This document shows positions 6,241-50,965 of a stretch of 64,000 nucleotides of DNA, one piece after another (position 1 is the first letter of the stretch; every line of letters begins with the position of its first letter). This stretch comes from Dactylorhiza incarnata. Lineage: Eukaryota; Streptophyta; Magnoliopsida; Asparagales; Orchidaceae. A model generated the notes under the pieces. The model did no database searches and had not been told where the DNA came from. It saw nothing but the letters and a program-made list of their open reading frames with translations. Position numbers and translations under genes: made by a program. The stretch spans positions 558,001 to 622,000 of the forward strand of contig JAWHQI010000262.1 in NCBI GenBank assembly GCA_033032865.1. Direction: 5' to 3'.

Positions 6241-7220
6241 GGCTTCGGGGCAAACACTCAGCATGCACAACCAAAGCACAAGCCAAGGCACCGTCAAAAT
6301 GCTCCTGACTGCCATTATCAAAGACATTTGGCCTGCACAACCAAAGCACAAGAAAAGGCGCAGTAAAAATGCTCCTCAGTGACCTTACCGAAAATATTTG
6401 GCCTGCACAACCAATGCACAAACCAAGGAACGATCAAAATGCTCTTGACCGCCCTTACTGAAAACATTCAGCCTACACAAACAAAGCACATGCCAAGGCA
6501 CGGTCAAAATGCTCTTGACAGCCCTTACCGAAAACATTTGGCCTGCACAACCAAAGCCCAAGCCAAGGCGCAGTAAAAATACTCCCGAGCGCCCTTACCA
6601 AAAACATTTAGCCTACACAAACATAACACAAGCTAAGGCACGATTAAAATGCTAGGACCACCCTTAACGGAAACATTCGGCCTGTACAACCAAAGCACAA
6701 GCCAAGGCATATTTAAAATTCTCCTCACCGCCCTTATCGAAAACATTCGGCCTGCGCAACTAACGCACAAGCCAAGGCGCCGTCAAAATGCTCCAAACCT
6801 CCCTTACTGAAAACATTCGGCCTGCACAACCAAAACACAAGCCAAGACACGGTCAAAATGCGCCTGACCGCCCTTACCAAAAATATTCGGCCTGGACTAC
6901 CAAAGAACAAGCCAAGGCACAGTAAAAATGCTCCTGACTTCCTTACCGAAAACTTTCGGCCTACACAACCAAAGCACAATCCAAGGAACAGTCAAAATGC
7001 TCCTAATTATCCATACCAAAAACATTCAGGCGGCACAACCAAAGCAAAAGCCAAGCCGTGGTCAAAATTCTCCTTACCGCCCTTACCGAAAATATTCAGC
7101 CTGCACAACCAAAGAACAAGCCAAAGAGCGGTGAAAATGCTCCTGACCATCCTCACCGAAAACATGTGGCATGCACAACCAAAGCACAAGCCAAGGAACG
7201 ATCGCTCCTGACTGCCATTA
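6241..7220. repeat. 70-bp tandem repeat array, about 14 copies
   Basis: The anchor AAAATGCTC recurs at about 6301, 6371, 6441, 6511, 6581, 6651, 6720, 6790, 6860, 6930, 6999, 7069 and 7139, so the period is 70 bp with two 69-bp units. Each unit carries versions of CCAAAGCACAAGCCAAGGCA and GACCGCCCTTACCGAAAACA. Units differ by scattered substitutions, so the array is not freshly amplified. It lies upstream of the minus-strand TATA box at 5980, in the U3 position of the Tat LTR. It ends abruptly at 7220 where element A starts. Open frames inside it are period artefacts (70 is not a multiple of 3). Confidence 0.92.
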
Positions 7221-8361
7221 TGAAAGGAGAGTTTTAGTTCTTATTCTTTATTAAAACTCTTATTTAACTTTGTTTTAAAGTAAGTGATATATATAAATAT
7301 ATATGTGTGTTTGCTGATTGAGTAATAAACACAAACAGTGAAGTGCAAAGTAATAAACAGCACAAATAAAACAATAAAATAAAGCACACATCCAGACGAC
7401 ACAAGATATATAGTAGTTCCCCAAAACTGGGTACATCTACTCTTCTACCCACTGGTAGGAATCCACTAGGAGAGTTAATCAAGTGCCCTCACAACAAGGT
7501 GTTTTTGATCGGGTGTCCACACACCAATGGAGGTTTGATCAGGTGCCCAATTCACCTATAAGCTTTTGACCAGGTGCTTATTAACCAACTAGATTTTTTG
7601 TTCAGGTGTCTTGCCACCAACAGGTAAACTTTTGAAGGGAGTTTTAACCCTGTACAAGATGCGGAAGGAGAAAGGGAAAAGATTAGTTGTTCTTCTCTTT
7701 GTGCTGAGAAGACTCTTGATGAAATCCTGATTGGTAGTTGTGTTTGGATCTTGATGATGATGTTGAAGAGCTCCCATTGTCTGATATAATTGTTGACAGT
7801 TTGTGGAGGCCTCTTCTCTTGATTGTACAAACTCCTTTCTTCTTATGCAGTAATGATCCTGAGCAAGTGATTGTGATTGGTGTCTCAGGATATATGATCT
7901 GCAAGAAAAAGGGTTAGCAAAAAGAAGATAAATAATGGAAGATCTGCTTCTTCTTTTTGCTCCTGTATTTCTCTTCCTGTTCTTTTCCTGTACATCAATA
8001 TTGATATATTCTATTCTATGTCTTTCTTATTCTGTCGAGAGATAACAGCTATATATATGTGATATATATTCTGCTGTAATATATTCTACTGTATTGTATA
8101 TCTATTTGAATCAAAGAGGAAAGCATTAATATAGCTTTCATTTCCCAGAACCTTGAGAACATCTCTTGCCGTCAATAGCTTGCTGCAACGGCTAGAACAT
8201 TTATTATTTCTGTTGCCAATGGCTATATTAATAAATGCTTCAACAGTTGTATTGTTAAATCAACAATATATATATATATATAGCAATATATAAAATAGAA
8301 TAAATAAATATTGCTTTAAATAATTCTGACAGCAAAATATCTATTTTAGTCAAGCTAAATA

Positions 8362-8380: not shown

Positions 8381-8660
8381 AAAAATTCGTCGAGCTGAGC
8401 TCTACGTTCGTCGAGATCATCATTTCATTCGTCGACCAGATCATGTGATTTACTGTTTCTGAACATCTGCTGAAATTCGTCGACCGTTGTTCGTCATTCG
8501 TCGACCGTTGTTCCACGTTCGTCGACCGCAGCTTCCCTTGCTGTAATCTGTCGAGCGCTGCTGCAATACAAACTTTTTGCCGAGCGCTGTCCGACGAATG
8601 CCGAGCGCCATTCGACAAATGCCGAGCGTCGTCGAACGACGTTCGTTGAACGCCAGTGAA
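8381..8660. repeat. Cluster of TTCGTCGA and GCCGAGCGC motifs in element A LTR
   Basis: Six exact TTCGTCGA copies occur between about 8385 and 8525, often extended to TTCGTCGACCG. They are followed by CTGTCGAGCGCTG, GCCGAGCGCTG, GCCGAGCGCC and GCCGAGCGTC. A short inverted repeat CGAACG-A-CGTTCG lies near 8634-8646. The 5' LTR (about 11488-11695) has the same arrangement. The region lies in the U3 part on the minus strand. The in-frame serine-threonine-asparagine repeats it would encode are a by-product of the motif. Confidence 0.85.
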
Positions 8661-8826
8661 CTATATGAAATATATTCATTTCTCTTATATTTTCTGCCTT
8701 ATTAAATATATTTATATTTTAGCTTTCTTTCTCAATGATAATTAATCTAAGTTATAATATGAGTTATGATATAAACTTAGACACTTAAGGTGGATCCTAA
8801 CTCAAATCAAAACTAAGGCTCCAACA

Positions 8827-8890
8827 ATCTCCCCCTATTTGAGTTGGGATCCTAATCCAAATTAACTAAGTTCTAACAATCTCCCCCTAT
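8827..8890 (-). other. Polypurine tract of element A, duplicated
   Basis: Next to the 3' LTR the minus strand reads AAATAGGGGGAGAT, a classic polypurine tract for plus-strand priming. The same tract with its flanking AACA recurs 52 bp further into the element (about 8875-8892), so the LTR-edge/tract unit is present twice. Confidence 0.75.
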
Positions 8891-8892
8891 TT

Positions 8893-9620
8893 GGTTTAGG
8901 ATTCCTAAGCATAAAAAGTCTTGAGTTGCTTAAGGGTTAGAGATTATTTTTAAATTTCTTTTATAACTAAGCAATTTGTAATTTCCTGAATTTTGATTTA
9001 AATAGGATTTTTAAATGAAATGAATTGCTAGCTGTTAACAGATTCTAAGAATTTCTATAATCAGAAAGACAATATCTGATAGCTTCTTTCTATAGAATCC
9101 CCTTAATCAGAAGATACTCGCACTCAGAGCTCTGATCATTTCTGATCCATGCTACTTGAGTAGAATGCTCAAACTGATTTTGGAGAAAAAAATCTGTAAG
9201 AAGATGAAGTCTATCTGACTTGTTTTTAAGATAGAAAATTCAAAGAAACCAAAAACTGTTGTTTAATTTAATTTAAGTAAAAATATTAAAAGTTTTAAAA
9301 TTTGCCTTATAGATAAATATTTTGGCCTTTTTATCTCATTAAAGTACAATTTTGAAAGTTTATTTTTATTTTGCTGAACATAAGAAATTTCTTTTTCTTT
9401 AAAATTCCGTTTAAATTTATTTGCCATAATTAACTTGTTTTCTAAACAGATAATTTGTTTTTCTGATGTTTTCAAATTTTCTTTAATTTTATCAAAAATT
9501 ACTTTGTTTATTATTAGCTTTTACTGATTCTGTTTTCAGAGATTTTTATACCTGCACAAGGTGATGTGAAAACAGATCTGAATGGATCAGTGGTAAAGTT
9601 AGGAATAGAATTTACCTCAG
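8893..9620 (-). other. Internal spacer of element A with small lysine-rich frame
   Basis: The stretch is AT-rich. The only notable frame is 9475-9263 (70 residues, rich in Lys, Asn and Leu, with spaced Leu/Ile residues that could form a coiled coil). Some large copia Gag proteins have a C-terminal coiled-coil region, so this may be a gag tail, but I cannot identify it by motif. No zinc knuckle or pol domain is visible. Confidence 0.45.
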
Positions 9621-10085
9621 TTACCTTTTCTGTTTCAGATTCAGCATCTGATTTGTATTTTTAGCCATATATTGCCAACATGCAGAAGTTCTGGCTTTTT
9701 GTTCTTCCTTGTCTTCTTCTTCAGTTAGAGTAACAAATGGTTCTGCATCAAAAATGATGTTAGTGGAAGAAGTAGGAATAGATTTATTTACCATCCTAGA
9801 GAGGGAGTGCCAGATGCTCTTTGCTGAAGTACAATCAGCCACTTTTAGAAGAATGTCATTTGACATTTATTTAGCCAATATCTCCATTGCTATGGCATCA
9901 GCACTGGTCAACTTTTCTTGATCATCTGTTGAAGAAGAGGAAGATGAAGTTCCTGTCAAAATAGATTTGTAAATACTTTCATCTATTGCATTCATATAAA
10001 ATCTGATTCTAACTTGCCATAAATCAATACTATCCAAATTACATAAAAGTGGATCTGAAAAAGAGAAATCTGATAGTGCCATCAA
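9621..10085 (-). pseudogene. Copia-type gag of element A
   Basis: Two nearly contiguous frames, 10085-9867 and 9866-9621, read as one Gag N-terminal half. It starts MMALSDFSFSDPLLCN, then LWQVRIRFYMNAIDESIYKSIL, DAIAMEILAKMSNDILLKVADCTSAKSIWHSL and later an acidic EEEDKEEQ segment. The W...MN.I......I and A..IW..L pattern is that of the plant copia Gag domain (UBN2/DUF4219 type). The start at 10085 lies about 240 bp after the primer-binding site. No zinc knuckle follows, so the protein is truncated relative to autonomous elements. There is serine-rich low complexity (SSSSSS) in the middle. Confidence 0.75.
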
Positions 10086-10180
10086 ATTTTAAAAAAATAC
10101 TTTTTACAACAAAACAAAATAAGAACTAAGTGTTCTTTGTGATTTCAGGTGTTAGCCTGTATGAAAAATCAACTTCCTCT

Positions 10181-10327
10181 AATACCAATTGAAAGGGGTT
10201 CAATTGAGCATCAGGTGCAAGAAATTGAAAAAAATAAAATCAGTCTCCTCTGATACCAATTGAAAAGGACAATTAATATCCTCTGATGAGGGTGATTGAT
10301 AAAATCAACCTGCTTTGATACCAATTG
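10181..10327 (-). other. tRNA-Met primer-binding site of element A, present three times
   Basis: On the minus strand CAATTGGTATCAAAGCAGG lies directly after the 5' LTR (10317-10327). Two further copies of CAATTGGTAT(C/T)AGAGGA lie at about 10251-10262 and 10181-10192, spaced 65 and 71 bp, each followed by a TTGATTTT-like stretch. TGGTATCAGAG is the complement of the initiator tRNA-Met 3' end. Only the first abuts the LTR. Confidence 0.8.
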
Positions 10328-20925: not shown

Positions 20926-20938
20926 TGGTATCAGAGGC
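20926..20938 (+). other. Primer-binding site of element C
   Basis: TGGTATCAGAGGC lies four bases after the 5' LTR end and matches the initiator tRNA-Met complement. Confidence 0.85.
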
Positions 20939-40278: not shown

Positions 40279-40962
40279 GTTCTAAGATGTAGCGTCTAGC
40301 AGTGTAGCCTGGAGTCTTCGGGAGCGTTAGTTGTTGTTTTACTGCGCTGTTGTGAGGTAGTTGTTGTTAGTTTTGTTCTTGTGTTCAGACATGCGAGTTT
40401 GGAGCTAATGGGTTAGCGTCAGGTTGTTGACGCCCATTGTGCCCTTTTTATACCTTACATCTTACTTGCTAGTTAAATGCCACTACTTTTAGATCTTGTG
40501 TATCTTGCTCTCTGGGAATGATTTATGTCTAGGTGCATTATAGTTATAAAATGGCTTTTCTTTCATCCTCATTGCATTCTTTTTAACTGAAATCCTTATC
40601 TTTAAAGTCGTTTAAAGGTATTTTCTATACTTATACTATGCCTAGATATGTGCATATCATTTACTTTATGTCCTGTCATACATTTAGGACCTTAAGTGAA
40701 CTAAATCAAGTATTTTCCGCTGCAATTACATATATTTTCTCGGTGGACTAGTTGATCCATGAACTGAGAGACACGGTTCTTACCCCAAACACTAATAAAT
40801 GATTTCAAATGATGACCTATCATGTAAACATGTTTTGATTAAATAAGTAATAGGTTCCCGCCTGAGCGTCTGCAGTTGTCTCCTGCATGTTGTGGCTTCA
40901 TGACGCGTATTTTCTCTTACTCTGATATTCCCAAATTCGGAGAAAATACGGCTTGTGACAAT

Positions 40963-40973
40963 TGGTATCAGAG
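40963..40973 (+). other. Primer-binding site of element F
   Basis: TGGTATCAGAG lies two bases after the LTR end and matches the initiator tRNA-Met complement exactly. Confidence 0.85.
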
Positions 40974-41120
40974 AGAGGTTTGTTCGACAAGTTGGTCAAG
41001 CGACTAATTCTGATATAGTTTAGGTATTTGGTTTCATTGCATACACACACCGATGTGTCATTAGTATGTCTTGGATGAAGCATGAACACTACACTCATAG
41101 CATGATAAGAAGTATATGGG

Positions 41121-41300
41121 GCATATTATGTAGTATGGGATGCATAATATGTGTTTGTATATGGATCCACCATAGGTGACAACATGTGACGATTATGTAG
41201 TATGGGATGCATAATCATCATCACATGGATGCCCATTAACACGTTTTTCCTTTTCGTTATATGCAATATTATGTAGTATGGGATGCATAATATTTCATGT
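41121..41300 (+). ncRNA. Three leader hairpins with identical loop (element F)
   Basis: Three stem-loops share the 12-nt loop TAGTATGGGATG (41131-41142, 41198-41209, 41274-41285). Stem 1 is CATATTATG/CATAATATG. Stem 2 is GATTATG/CATAATC, extended by CATGTGA (41183-41189) with TCACATG (41221-41227). Stem 3 is AATATTATG/CATAATATT, extended after one mismatch. Element G has the same three in the same order and spacing, with compensatory stem changes. They lie between primer site and gag start, so they would be in the untranslated leader of genomic RNA. A packaging, dimerisation or translation role is possible; none is shown. Confidence 0.75.
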
Positions 41301-41643: not shown

Positions 41644-42875
41644 ATGGTGCGTAAGAGAGTCGCGACTAGATATACTCCTCAGTCAGAGGGTGAGTCGTCT
41701 GTAGCGCAGAGTGAAACTTTGATCGAGAGTCTGCGCCAGAGCAATGAGTCTCTGACGAGGAAAATGGTTGCGATGCAATCGCAAGTTGAGGTGTTGTTGT
41801 CTGCCGGTGCAAGGCAGCAAGCCGCGGTGCAGGCCCCCATAGTAGAGCAATCCTTACCTACCCCTCCTACTCCCCTGGTACCCCCAGTAGCGATACCGCC
41901 AGAAATGAACTTCATTTCGCACTTTCAGAGATTGGGACCTCCATCGTATGACGGTCGAGCCGACTTCGTGGCCTTAGATGATTGGCTTATAGACATTGAG
42001 GAGATGTTCTCGTATTCAGGAATCACCGTGGATCAGAAGGTTATGGTTGTCGCATACCAGCTTAAGGGTCTCGCTAAGAGTTGGTGGTTGAGGGAGAAGG
42101 AAGGCCTTTACGAAGGATGTTCGTGGGAAACCTTCAATGGAATATTGTTAAGAAAGATTCTGCCATCGGTAGAGCAAGATCGATTGATGAATGATTTCCT
42201 GCATCTGAAGCAGAGGCAGCTCTCAGTGAGTGAGTATGAAATAGAGTTTGGCAAGTTGAGCAGGTTTGCTCCGGCCTTAGTAGCCTCGGAAGAAGGTAGG
42301 GTGAAGAGATTTCTGGGTGTTCTCCGCAGCGACATCCAGCAGCTGGCCAGCTCGTAGAGGTCGGAGAAGTACGCCGAGGTAGTAGAGGCAACACTGAAGG
42401 TTTGGGCAATTGATAATGCCAAGAATCGAGGATCAATAATGAAGAAGGGAAAGAGAAAGGTCGTAGATAAAGGGAATTCTGGTGCACCTGGCTTAGTATT
42501 GAAGAAAGGAGGTGGTGAGGTCTGCAGTTTCTGTGGCCGCCCTAGCCATCCGTTTGAAAAGTGTTTCAAGAGGAAAGGAGTTCAAAAGCAACAGCGAGTG
42601 ATGGCAATTCAGGGTGCTCCGAAGGGAGAGGTGCTCTTTCCGTTGTGCAAGCAAAAGGGGCATGATGCGACCTAGTGTTGTACCAAGGAGAAAGTCTGCT
42701 TCCAGTGCGGACAGAAAGGGCACATGAAGTTTCAATGCCCGCGAGCTCAACCCCCATTGCAGCCAGTTCTGCTTCGAGCCTTACCGTCGCCGCAGCATCA
42801 GGATAAAGGAAGAGGAAAGCTGAATGTGATAACCCAGGAGCAAGCGCAGTCTTCGACCCAAGTGATCGCAGGTTA
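41644..42875 (+). pseudogene. gag of element F with three zinc knuckles
   Basis: The frame starts MVRKRVATRYTPQ at 41644 and runs to a TAG at 42355-42357: a helical N-terminus (SLRQSNESLTRKMVAMQSQVEVLL), a proline-rich linker, then capsid (FQRLGPPSYDGRADFVALDDWLIDIEEMFSY ... WWLREKEG ... EYEIEFGKLSRFAP). The same frame continues to a second TAG at 42673 and on to about 42873. Knuckle 1 is CSFCGRPSHPFEKC and knuckle 3 is CFQCGQKGHMKFQC, both complete C-X2-C-X4-H-X4-C. The middle one (FPLCKQKGHDAT, stop, CC) has lost its first Cys and holds the stop. Two nonsense mutations inactivate it. Confidence 0.87.
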
Positions 42876-44919: not shown

Positions 44920-45928
44920 AGACTTGCAGCATCTTCAGAGTAGGACTGAGAAAGGGGAACTGCCAGACTTTTCAATCGATGATAAATATACCCTGATGTA
45001 TCGAGGTAGATATTGCATTCCCGCATCGGAAGATAATGGAGCGAAGATCTGTAGTGAAGTGCATGACTCAAGTGTTTCCTATCATCCTGGTTCCAAGAAA
45101 ATGTACAAAGACCTGAAGTAGATCGTTTGGTGGTCAGGTATGAAGAATGATATAGCCAGATATATTTCTAAATATTTTACCTGCCAGCGCGTTAAGGCAA
45201 ATCATAAGAGGCCTTGAGGTAAACTGAACCCTTTGGATATTCCAAGATGGAAGTGGGAGAGTATTTCAATGGTCTTCATTACTGGTTTACCGAGATCCCC
45301 TGGAGGACACGATTCGGTATGGGTCATAGTTGACAGATTGACAAAGTGTGCTCACTTGGTGCCTTTTAAGATCGGCTACTCTATGGAGAAAATAACATAA
45401 CTTTATTTGAATGAAGTCATTAGATTGCATAGTATGCCTGTGAGCATTGTATCGGATCGGGATTCCAGATATATGTCCCACTTCTGGAGGAGTTTGCAGG
45501 GAGCTTTGGGTACTGACCTTAGATACTCTACCACTTACCACCCACAGACCAATGGTCAGACGGAGAGAGTGAATCAAATTTTGGAAGATATGATCAGGTG
45601 CTATATTTTGGATCATGGAGGAGCGTGGGATAAGCGTCTTGGGTTGATGGAATTTGCCTACAATAATAGTTATCAGGAAAGCTTACAAATGGCCCCCTTT
45701 GAGGCTCTGTATGGGAGGCATTGTCGAACTCCCTTGTTTTGGGCCGAGGTTGGTGAGTGTTTGTTGTTAGGCCTAGAGTCTTTGGAAGAGATGAGCGTTG
45801 TCGTGACTCATATCCGCGAGAAGCTTCGTATTGCTCAGGAGCGGTATGAGAAGTATGCCAATCAGAGAAGGGTGGATCTAGAGTTTATCGTCGGAGACTT
45901 AGTGTTCTTGAAAGTTTGTCCGATGCCG
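44920..45928 (+). pseudogene. Integrase of element F, truncated
   Basis: The zinc-finger region is at 44924-45121 (EVHDSSVSYHPGSKKMYKDLK) and after a stop continues WWSGMKNDIARYISKYFTCQRVKANHKRP. The first catalytic Asp context (MDFITGLP) reads MVFITGLP, so Asp is replaced by Val. The second Asp (VSDRDSRY) and the Glu (NGQTERVNQ) remain in the frame 45407-45958, which continues ALYGRHCRTPLFWAEVG and QERYEKYANQRRVDLEFIVGDLVFLKV. The protein breaks off at PMPG near 45928, before the GPY/F module and chromodomain. Confidence 0.87.
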
Positions 45929-45940
45929 GGTGAAATATTA

Positions 45941-46010
45941 TATAGGTATATGATCTAATTCACCTAGAGGGGGGGGGGGGGGTGAATAGGTCTTTTGATA
46001 TTTACTTATT
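45941..46010. repeat. Junction with poly-G tract
   Basis: This is a short stretch between the broken integrase of F and the E2 LTR. It contains 14 G in a row (45969-45982) in the context CACCTAGAGG...GTGAATAGGTC. No coding sequence is seen. Confidence 0.6.
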
Positions 46011-47642: not shown

Positions 47643-48344
47643 TGTCACAACCCGCATTTTCTCAATATTTAAAATATATCAGAGTGAGAGAAAATACGCG
47701 CCATGATGCCACGCCGTGCAGGGGACAACTGCAGACGCTCAGGCAAACTCCTAAATCTAATGCTCTTTTATGAAAACACATGCTAGTATGATAAAACAAG
47801 ATTTAAGTTTAAGTTGAGAACCATGTCCCGCGGTCCAGTGGATCAACTAGTCCACGAGTAAAAGTATATGCTGTCGCAGAGGAGAAATACTTGATTCAAT
47901 TCTTTTATGGTCCTATATGAGCCCGAAGACCTAACATACAGCTAATGTTATGCATGACTCTAGATTTATTATATGTAATAAAAAGTATTATAACGTTCAA
48001 AATATTGTGGCTTTCATTTAAAGATATGCGATGAATCTAAGTTAAATGCAGTCTTTTTATATTTAAAGTAACTAACATGCATCCTAATATAAAATCCTTC
48101 CCAGAGAGCAAGAGTAAGAGCTAACAGTAGATAACAGCAGTGAACACTAGCAAGTAGTCTAACATCCAAGACAAAACACTATGGGCGTCAACAAACAGAC
48201 ACAAACCCATAGGAGAAAATCTAGTCAGAAAAGACAAAACTACCTCACAGAAGGAGGTGAAACAAACGCTGCCACTACCTGCAGCACAGAAACCTCGAGC
48301 TCTACCAGACGAACCTGCTACTGCTCTGAACCTGCCACTACCTG
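47643..48344 (-). repeat. LTR end copy of element G (left)
   Basis: It matches 49987-50677 nearly base for base, from TGTCA.AACCC to GCTCTGAACCTG. The match ends exactly where the minus strand reads CAG|GTTCAGAGC, a possible splice acceptor. Confidence 0.85.
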
Positions 48345-49330
48345 CATGACAAACAAAAGCACAAACTTTCACCACAGGCTCACGTGAAACACCTCGTGAG
48401 AACCAGGGAAAGAAGCAGGCAAACACAGCCTAACAGCAGACACTCTGATGCACTCACTCTGGCATCAGAGAAACTATCTAGAAAACCATGCCCCCAACTA
48501 CGAGCTCTAAATTAGCACTCTGCCAATTGCAAATTTCTCCTAACGCTTCTGAGCCTACAGTAGCTCCTCATGGATAAGCGAAACAGCGACACTCAAATCC
48601 ACCAAAGCTTCCAAAATCTGCCTCAAATCGCTCACAGGCACCACATTCGGATACAAACCTTGCTACACTATTTTGTACTTCCAAGCATCAAACCATTTTC
48701 CTCAGATCACGATACATTTCTTTTTGAAATCAAAATGGTAGGCAACGCTAGAACTTCACGCTTTGCCACAAATCCTTGTCCGAATATTTTCAATAGCGGG
48801 AATACAATATTTACTTCTAAAATTCTACATGATCAATTTTTTTCTCAAAGAGTCCAGAAAATCTTTGCATTAGACTTAACCCCGAACGCAATTCCAATTT
48901 ATAAAAGGCTCGCCCAACACTAAGCTGGTCAACAGTAATATTGCATCCAACAGTTCCTAATGAAATTCTCTCTGCCAGCTACTACACTAAAACACTAATG
49001 ATGAGTGTAGGGTAATTCTTCCTATAAAATTTCAAATTCCATGAACCATTCGCAAGCACAATCCCTGTCTACGTTAGAACAGAACACCAAAACCATGATC
49101 AAAATTCACGACAAGGTCTTCTAAATCCAACACTTCCAAATCAACCTAAGCGATAAAAACCATTTAGAAGGGAATAAAGCACTAAGGGGATCAACTAAAC
49201 GATCGAAAATCTAACGATGATCGGCCACGAAACTGAATCGGGAAGAACGCTCTGAAGTCATCTTCTGCGATTACGAACGGACATCTCATCTATACCTAGC
49301 TTACTACCTCAACTAGGAAACTAGAATCAT
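48345..49330 (-). other. Unidentified sequence in element G
   Basis: It does not match the corresponding part of G's right LTR or F's LTR. On the minus strand it is a moderately AT-rich sequence with no long frame and no gag or pol motif. It ends (minus direction) in TTTGTTTGTCATGCAG|GTAGTGG, close to a splice-acceptor consensus. It could be leader/internal sequence, a divergent LTR part or captured foreign sequence. Confidence 0.5.
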
Positions 49331-49968
49331 CTAACTCAAATAGATCAGAAATGTATAGACACTTGCACATGCTGTTACCTTGGTCTGGGATTTCATAAAT
49401 GACGTTATGCTCTAATACTTGGGATGATGCTCTGTCATCCCTTTTGAATCTTGTGCCTATGATATGAATGCATGTTTTCTTTATTCTCTTTTGAAATCAT
49501 ATGTGTACATATGTCATCTGGTATGTCTTTAACTTGGCACGCGTGCTTATGCGATGATATGAATGTATGCAGTGCTATTCATTCTAGAAAGAGGCCTTAA
49601 TGCATGTTATGAGCGGCGTAAACATGTAATGTTATGCATCCCATACTACATAACATTACATGTAACGAAAAAAGAAAACATGCTAATGGGCATCCATGTA
49701 ATGGTGGTTATGCATCCCATACTACATAACCATCACATGTTGCCACCAATGGTGGATCCATATACAAACACATATTATGCATCCCATACTACATAATATG
49801 CCCCGTATACTTCTTATCATGCTATGAGTGTTGTGTCCATGCTTCAGTCAAGACATATTGATGACATATCGGTGTGTGTATACAATGAAATGGTCTTATG
49901 AGGTTCTACTTAGGATAGCGGTTGTTTGGCTCACACGCCAAAACCACCCAACTACCTTTTTCACAGAA
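49331..49968 (-). other. Leader of element G
   Basis: The minus strand matches the leader of element F (about 40975-41600) in order: the ACACACCGAT(A/G)TGTCAT segment, the three hairpins, the segment before gag and the GAAATCCCAGA.CAAGG block. The region ends where F's gag would start, and no gag follows here. Confidence 0.75.
49622..49800 (-). ncRNA. Three leader hairpins with identical loop (element G)
   Basis: On the minus strand three loops TAGTATGGGATG (plus positions 49780-49791, 49713-49724, 49637-49648) are enclosed by stems CATATTATG/CATAATATG, TGGTTATG/CATAACCA (extended by CATGTGA with TTACATG) and ACATGTAATGTTATG/CATAACATTACATGT. The last is a perfect 15-bp stem. Order and loop spacing (67 and 76) equal those in element F. 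Relative to F, stems 2 and 3 each show an A-T to G-C change on both sides. Confidence 0.75.
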
Positions 49969-49986
49969 CCTCCCTCTGATACCAAC
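49969..49986 (-). other. Primer-binding site of element G
   Basis: The minus strand reads GTTGGTATCAGAGGGAGG directly after the LTR terminus, an exact TGGTATCAGAG tRNA-Met complement. Confidence 0.85.
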
Positions 49987-50965
49987 TGTCATAACCCAAA
50001 TTTTCTCAATATTTAAAATATATCAGAGTGAGAGAAAATACGCGCCGTGATGCCACGCCGTGCATGGGACAACTGCAGACGCTCAGGCAAACTCCTAAAT
50101 CTAATGCTCTTTTATGAAAACACATGCTAGTATGATAAAACAAGATTTAAGTTTAAGTTGAGAACCGTGTCCCTCGGTCCAGTGGATCAACTAGTCCACG
50201 AGTAAACGTATATGCGGTCGCAGCGGAGAAATACTTGATTCAATTCTTTTATGGTCCTATATGAGCCCGAAGACCTAACATACAGCTAATGTTATGCATG
50301 ACTCTAGATTTATTATAAGTAATAAAAAGTATTATAACGTTCAAAATATGGTGGCTTTCAGTTAAAGATATGCGATAAATCTAAGTTAAATGCAGCCTTT
50401 TTATATTTAAAGTAACTAACATGCATCCTAACATAAATCCTTCCCGGAGAGCAAGAGTAAGAGCTAATAGTAGGTAACAGCAGTGAACACTAGCAAGTAG
50501 TCTAACATCCAAGACAAAACACTATGGGCGTCAACAAACAGACACAAACCCATAGGAGCACATCTAGTCAGAAAAGACAAAATTACCTCACAGAAGGAGG
50601 TGAAACAAACGCTGCCACTACCTACAGCACAGAAACCTCGAGCTCTACCAGACGAACCTGCTACTGCTCTGAACCTGAGGCATTCAAAAGAAGAACACCT
50701 CAGAAAAAAGTTGCAAGTGGTGCAAGAGAGCAAAAAGTGCTAAACAAACCTCCAAGTAAACGGGAGGTATACCAACAGCCTGCAACAGATGTCAGTACTA
50801 GAGTGCAGAAACAGGGAAGAGAAACCAGCTAAATAGCTAAAATCAAGAGAGTTCACTAACAGAAGCAAAAGAAGTGCATAGCTATATATATATACATATA
50901 TTTACCAGATTTCAAATTCATATTCATATTCAAAATCATAAGAGACTGATCTGCTCATCCAAAAT

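Follow-up and report, generated by a model that had tools for sequence, protein, structure and literature searches.

Two elements with a shared leader array

The window analysed here is a stretch of 64,000 nt from the 3.27-Gb assembly of the host, Dactylorhiza incarnata, and two LTR elements within it, F on the plus strand and G on the minus strand, carry the leader hairpins described below. The 5′ LTR of F ends near position 40960 and is followed by a primer binding site (PBS; 40963-40980) that complements the 3′ terminus of the host's initiator tRNA-Met (tRNA-iMet), with one mismatch to the commonest 18-mer. Downstream lies the gag open frame (41644-42357), which matches Retrotrans_gag and Ty3_capsid. 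Separate pieces of F have Pfam matches to gag, protease, reverse transcriptase (RT) and RNase H of Ty3 type, and these domains assign F to the Ty3/gypsy LTR retrotransposons; Tekay is the label that it was given in the initial annotation. The piece at 45401-45955, examined with regard to an integrase chromodomain, has no Pfam match. The named Gag relatives come from orchids (Platanthera), with 64-82% identity across 24-99% of the query.

G is bounded by LTR repeats at 49987-50677 and 47643-48334 (minus strand) that differ at 23 of 691 aligned positions. Its PBS (49967-49984, minus strand) is an exact complement, over 18 nt, of the tRNA-iMet 3′ end with CCA (genes such as L121 and L126). The interior 3′ of the G leader (48335-49400, minus strand) holds no sense frame longer than 53 amino acids. 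When it is compared with the F proteins, short matches appear in colinear order: protease at E 0.013, RT at E 0.024 and the zinc region of integrase at E 3e-8, the last alone reaching significance.

Three hairpins lie between the PBS and gag in F, at 41121-41152, 41183-41227 (an inner stem with an outer helix) and 41259-41300, with the 12-mer TAGTATGGGATG at 41131-41142, 41198-41209 and 41274-41285. Their counterparts in G, on the minus strand, lie at 49770-49801, 49695-49739 and 49622-49663, the third bearing the double changes of the G family. Counted downstream from the PBS start, the array begins after about 158 nt in F and 183 nt in G. As had been claimed from the sequence of the window, the 12-mer is unchanged in all six hairpins: it has exactly six exact matches in the window (plus strand 41131, 41198 and 41274; minus strand 49780, 49713 and 49637, lower coordinates), and the loop-to-loop spacing is 67 and 76 nt in both elements. 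At up to two mismatches, the window holds nine matches against 5.0 expected, which is not beyond chance, and the signal is the six exact, equally spaced copies, not a mismatch-tolerant count. The differences between the F and G stems named in the initial annotation are likewise present in both leaders.

Against 200 shuffles, the G leader folded with z -4.15 (0/200 as good) and the F leader with z -1.84 (6/200 as good); folding energy alone is only moderate evidence for the predicted structure, and by energy F is unremarkable. The 12 nt, invariant in the six copies, had been described as the loop; its unpaired length is shorter, as two bases at either end are paired in the RNAfold structures, leaving a loop of 8 nt, GUAUGGGA, in both elements.

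An Rfam scan of the window gave no match at gathering score, and the window element with a TGGTATCAGAG site near 20926, read by eye, has no such hairpins. Elsewhere in the window, self comparison revealed a repeat block at 6252-7225 with a period of about 70 nt and copies about 77-81% identical. At 8589-10325, two repeats of about 1.37 kb, 95% identical, flank a stretch that ends in three plus-strand ATACCAATTGAAA-like repeats and is possibly a minus-strand element.

Copies across the host genome and changes in the stems

An exact 21-nt core of the hairpin occurs 9,498 times in the host genome (4,687 + 4,811), and the same core read backwards has no match there. To avoid selecting leaders by their hairpins, we gathered them through the F gag protein or through the non-coding interior of G. 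The gag search was scored for the best 150 of 37,410 candidates, and 49 loci (L032-L080) were fetched; the G-interior search was scored for 40 of 841 candidates, and 20 of those 40 (L081-L100) were fetched. An array passed if all three hairpins had at least 14/20 core matches. By this measure 45 of the 49 gag-found loci carry the array, three being short in at least one hairpin and one being devoid of hairpins, as do all 20 G-found loci. Together with F, G, 24 copies found by exact core (23 passing) and 20 variant-loop stretches (19 used), these loci gave 115 arrays, of which 109 were used. Those dropped were L060 (no hairpin), L115 (wrong coordinates) and L014, L043, L051 and L075 (at least one hairpin below 14/20); L001 and L002 (unrelated), L004, L008, L009 and L010 (overlaps) and L031 (identical to F) were left out of the counts. 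The divergent leader at L014:1325-1704 has a second hairpin with another stem, GTTAAG/CTTAAC, and the loop AAAUGGG. Two IMG/VR loci matching the 18-mer were set aside as unrelated, each a single copy with no PBS motif on either strand.

The 40 main matches of the G-interior search are at least 90% identical to G over about 740-800 non-coding nt, so the family has multiplied without coding capacity; two further pieces of 51 nt match at 86-88% identity. From this copy number and the missing coding capacity, we infer that G would be mobilised in trans. All 20 fetched G copies retain the array together with compensations of their own. The G compensation likely arose after the loss of coding, though an unsampled coding partner could share it.

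We counted base pairs at 45 positions set by fixed offset from the loop; an RNAalifold consensus of 26 leaders had misplaced hairpin 2, probably through alignment gaps, and was set aside for offset counting. Across the 109 arrays, 4,696 of 4,905 pair cells (95.7%) hold standard pairs, and when partners were slid by one to three places only 16-63% paired, with 2-26 two-sided cells. Two-sided changes occur at 12 of the 45 pairs and in 181 cells, against 45.2 cells in 500 column shuffles (sd 6.6, maximum 61). The number of changed pairs is less telling than this cell count, as 19 of 500 shuffles reached 12 pairs; the observed number of pair types was reached by 2 of 500. Column shuffles ignore the relatedness of copies, a tree built from the flanks has little resolution, with no support for 80 of its 99 inner branches, and sister-pair sign tests on that tree gave no significance, with too few independent changes. 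We therefore rested the case on changes at the level of clades.

Several such changes are found. Hairpin 3 pair (5,5) is A-U in 45/45 gag-found arrays and G-C (17) or G.U (3) in the 20 G-found arrays; pair (9,9) of the same hairpin is U-A in 20/20 G-found arrays and non-standard in 44/45 gag-found ones. A clade of 20 copies, here T, has replaced A-U by U.G at the loop-adjacent pair of hairpins 1 and 2 (with U-A in hairpin 2 of one copy), G-C by A-U at hairpin 3 pair (10,10) and A-U by G-C at hairpin 2 pair (8,11). Ten copies of a group S have C-G for U-A at hairpin 2 pair (10,13). The helices are imperfect: clade T is mismatched at hairpin 2 pair (10,13), and 32 S and T copies at hairpin 3 pairs (4,4) and (5,5). 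G.U occupies 233 stem cells and A.C 44, many of the G.U cells being shared by descent.

The initial annotation had read the F/G differences in stems 2 and 3 as paired substitutions kept by selection on base pairing. For stem 3 the reading stands, as a compensation at the level of families. The stem-2 difference is, in this sample, private to F: 105 of the 109 arrays have G-C there, two have G.T, one has A.C and F alone has A-T, which is therefore a single double change. The larger sample, with its clade-level compensations, supports selection on pairing and the reading of the hairpins as an RNA element.

Recent copying of hairpins from one position to another, which the initial annotation had named as a refuting finding, is not borne out by the arms, as these differ between the hairpins and compensate in each of them separately. 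In one clade, however, hairpins 1 and 2 share a changed loop, so gene conversion of the cores is possible. A changed core, TTGTATGGGCGG, stands jointly in hairpins 1 and 2 of L013 and of L101-L120 without L115, whereas their hairpin 3 still has TAGTATGGGATG or differs from it by one base. Genome-wide, TTGTATGGGCGG has 63 exact matches, forming 30 pairs 67 nt apart and three singles, from about 33 elements. The joint change reflects either conversion or shared recognition.

The loop and initiator tRNA-Met

Across the genome, the loop is less constant than in the window. TATGGG is found in 266 of 327 hairpins, TATGAG in 35, TATGTG in 13 and other sequences in 13. At least one hairpin has an intact UAUGGG in 107 of 109 arrays, and all three do in 65. 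The first and last bases of the 8-nt loop are G.A in 278 of the 327 hairpins, G-C in 39, U.G in two and other combinations in eight. Because this closing pair varies around a kept hexamer, the natural variants suggest a hexaloop, UAUGGG, closed by a variable G.A, G-C or U.G pair. Hairpins 1, 2 and 3 lie within the minimum-free-energy structure of 95, 101 and 92 of the 109 leaders, with the hexaloop mostly unpaired, and the hairpins are 66-67 and 72-79 nt apart in the first 90 arrays of the sample.

In 195 hairpins not selected by core, loop positions 1-8 show 6, 1, 4, 1, 4, 38, 3 and 2 changes; for comparison, columns in the flank of hairpin 1 average 5.8 changes (of 65). Position 6, the base that follows the loop AUG (Kozak +4), is thus the one clearly variable position, and positions 1 and 8, like the inner stem TATG/CATA, hardly vary.

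Most plant chromoviruses have a PBS to tRNA-Met (PMC6317226), and such a PBS is also found in the array-bearing elements. Of the 88 arrays with a PBS, 45 fit a single host iMet 18-mer at every one of its 18 nt; further common PBS types, with 12, 5, 4 and 4 copies, are at most one position away from a fetched tRNA gene. The PBSs of L045, L054, L005, L006, L014 and L062 are complements of different host tRNA-iMet genes, those of L045 and L054, single copies, matching rarer iMet genes exactly. Such differences possibly record which tRNA gene product primed each lineage, or possibly arose by mutation. The rarer PBSs of L045 and L054 would fit rewriting from the primer; single mutations of the commoner types could explain them as well.

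Host iMet genes were searched with a pattern that fixes C-N-CATAA and leaves position 33 open, and 28 of the 29 matches read GGG-CCCATAA-CCC. ARAGORN called tRNA-Met in six of seven fetched genes; some of the seven may be pseudogenes, given their imperfect acceptor stems. The hexamer UAUGGG is complementary to CCCAUA, nt 32-37 in the anticodon loop of this tRNA. This apparent pairing partner is absent from the initial annotation and is new here. Only 12 of 20,000 random 8-mers were predicted to bind CCCAUAA as well as the loop does, and 22 of 20,000 random 7-nt loops were bound equally well. The leader also has other 6-nt matches to tRNA-iMet, so a match somewhere on the tRNA is not rare, and the complementarity of loop and anticodon loop, noticed after the fact, is suggestive and not proof.

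Loop position 6 lies at the centre of the predicted duplex, opposite tRNA nt 33, and changing it weakens the duplex from -8.4 to -2.2 kcal/mol; its variability speaks against a strict 6-bp duplex with the tRNA. Nucleotide 33 is the turn of the anticodon loop, and facing it may excuse the tolerance at position 6. The constancy of G7, G1 and A8 is not so excused, nor does anticodon pairing explain the near-invariance of positions 1 and 8 and of the inner stem.

Possible roles of the array

We suggest, with confidence a little short of even, that the array serves this abundant Ty3/gypsy family as a cis-acting RNA signal in replication, most likely one for primer-tRNA capture by loop kissing and probably coupled to packaging by Gag. 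Each of the three stems would hold out a hexaloop UAUGGG in the leader RNA, and the loops would kiss nt 32-37 (CCCAUA) in the anticodon loop of the initiator tRNA. The kissed tRNA would be the one that matches the PBS about 170 nt upstream, and the genomic RNA would thereby capture its primer, probably together with Gag, during packaging. Transcription of the leader, its folding, the kissing and the effect of the kissing are all steps that we infer. More tentatively, the triple anticodon-kissing array may capture the primer as part of packaging, perhaps diverting initiator tRNA from translation, and non-autonomous relatives may keep it as a ticket into particles.

The foremost alternative, possible although we rather doubt it, is a classical packaging signal in which Gag zinc knuckles bind the hairpins and the loop is read by protein, not by tRNA. 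Its psi-like features are the site of the array between PBS and gag and its retention by elements presumably needing mobilisation in trans, such as the non-coding G family, which would need the Gag of another element. The loop is G-rich, and an invariant inner stem with one tolerant loop position would suit reading by a protein. Of 28 Gag loci, 8 have three CCHC knuckles, 14 have two, two have one and four have none. What such a signal leaves to chance is the match between hexaloop and anticodon loop, at about 0.1% for that loop and more if any part of the tRNA counts. We favour primer capture over a packaging signal read by protein alone. The maximum number of CCHC knuckles in the Gag of L032-L059, three, equals the number of hairpins, which may be coincidence.

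The initial annotation had also listed translation control and dimerisation as candidates. Under the former, gag translation would be tuned by upstream AUGs or AUG-UAG start-stop units displayed on the hairpins, and the 679-nt F leader does contain 34 upstream AUGs; the AUG-UAG unit and frames of 10-12 codons from the GGGAUG start are kept in most F, G and S copies. Yet G, with no protein to translate, keeps and compensates its stems, which makes translation an unlikely purpose of the array. Clade T no longer has the GGGAUG start or the start-stop unit in its first two hairpins (that ATG is missing from 20/20 copies), yet pairing and UAUGGG persist, and the variable loop base sits at Kozak +4. 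We consider translation control unlikely.

A dimerisation signal, or a site for a host RNA-binding protein, would suit repeated exposed loops in a retroelement leader, but GUAUGGGA lacks self-complementarity, on which ground we rejected dimerisation by the loop, and nothing specific to either was found; such a reading seems quite improbable. Least probable of all, to the point of being slight, is a DNA-level feature without RNA function, in which short palindromes multiplied through duplication or gene conversion, or which is bound as double-stranded DNA: one core does stand at three places, and hairpins 1 and 2 did change together in clade T (60 of the 63 changed-core matches being paired), but the arms differ between hairpins and compensate separately, and G.U is far commoner than A.C, as expected of RNA, though many G.U are shared by descent.

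To our knowledge, little is known of how the LTR retrotransposons of plants choose the RNA and the primer for reverse transcription. Thousands of natural copies, covariation, a non-autonomous family and a candidate RNA partner make the question directly testable here. Our searches of open-licence papers brought up no account of a comparable array for retrotransposons of plants; the literal loop sequence appeared in that literature only in an HIV methylation paper.

Primer capture by the array would have both likenesses to known systems and differences from them. Retroviral Psi consists of repeated stem-loops between PBS and gag. The array resembles it in having stem-loop repeats at that site, and differs in its loop sequence, its tRNA match and its host lineage.

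Ty3 and Ty1 are LTR retrotransposons that bind a tRNA-iMet primer in a bipartite manner, with contacts beyond its 3′ end (PMC5371799), as is proposed for the orchid elements. The Ty3 contacts given there are with the acceptor stem, the TΨC arm and the D arm, whereas those proposed here are with the anticodon loop, through hairpins. The half-tRNA priming of Ty5 and copia (PMC10886601, PMC5371799) also uses sequence complementary to the anticodon region of iMet. There, however, the anticodon match is the PBS itself; the orchid PBS pairs with the mature 3′ end, and its anticodon match lies in separate hairpins.

A further likeness is to HIV-1. The match between its A-rich loop and the anticodon of the primer tRNA affects primer use (PMC1785369), and abolishing it lowered infectivity and reverse-transcription products and raised primer extension in vitro (PMC7793103); the interaction is reported to bear on infectivity, RNA integrity and the choice of primer (PMC1785369, PMC7793103). 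As with the A-loop, a leader loop in the orchid elements is complementary to the anticodon of the tRNA that matches the PBS, here by sequence only. Unlike the A-loop, which lies upstream of the PBS (PMC1785369), the orchid array lies downstream, starting about 158-183 nt after the PBS start, and it consists of three covarying hairpins in a plant Ty3/gypsy family that appears to use tRNA-iMet. If the proposal is true, primer recognition through the anticodon loop, as in HIV-1, would have arisen in a distant retroelement by another architecture.
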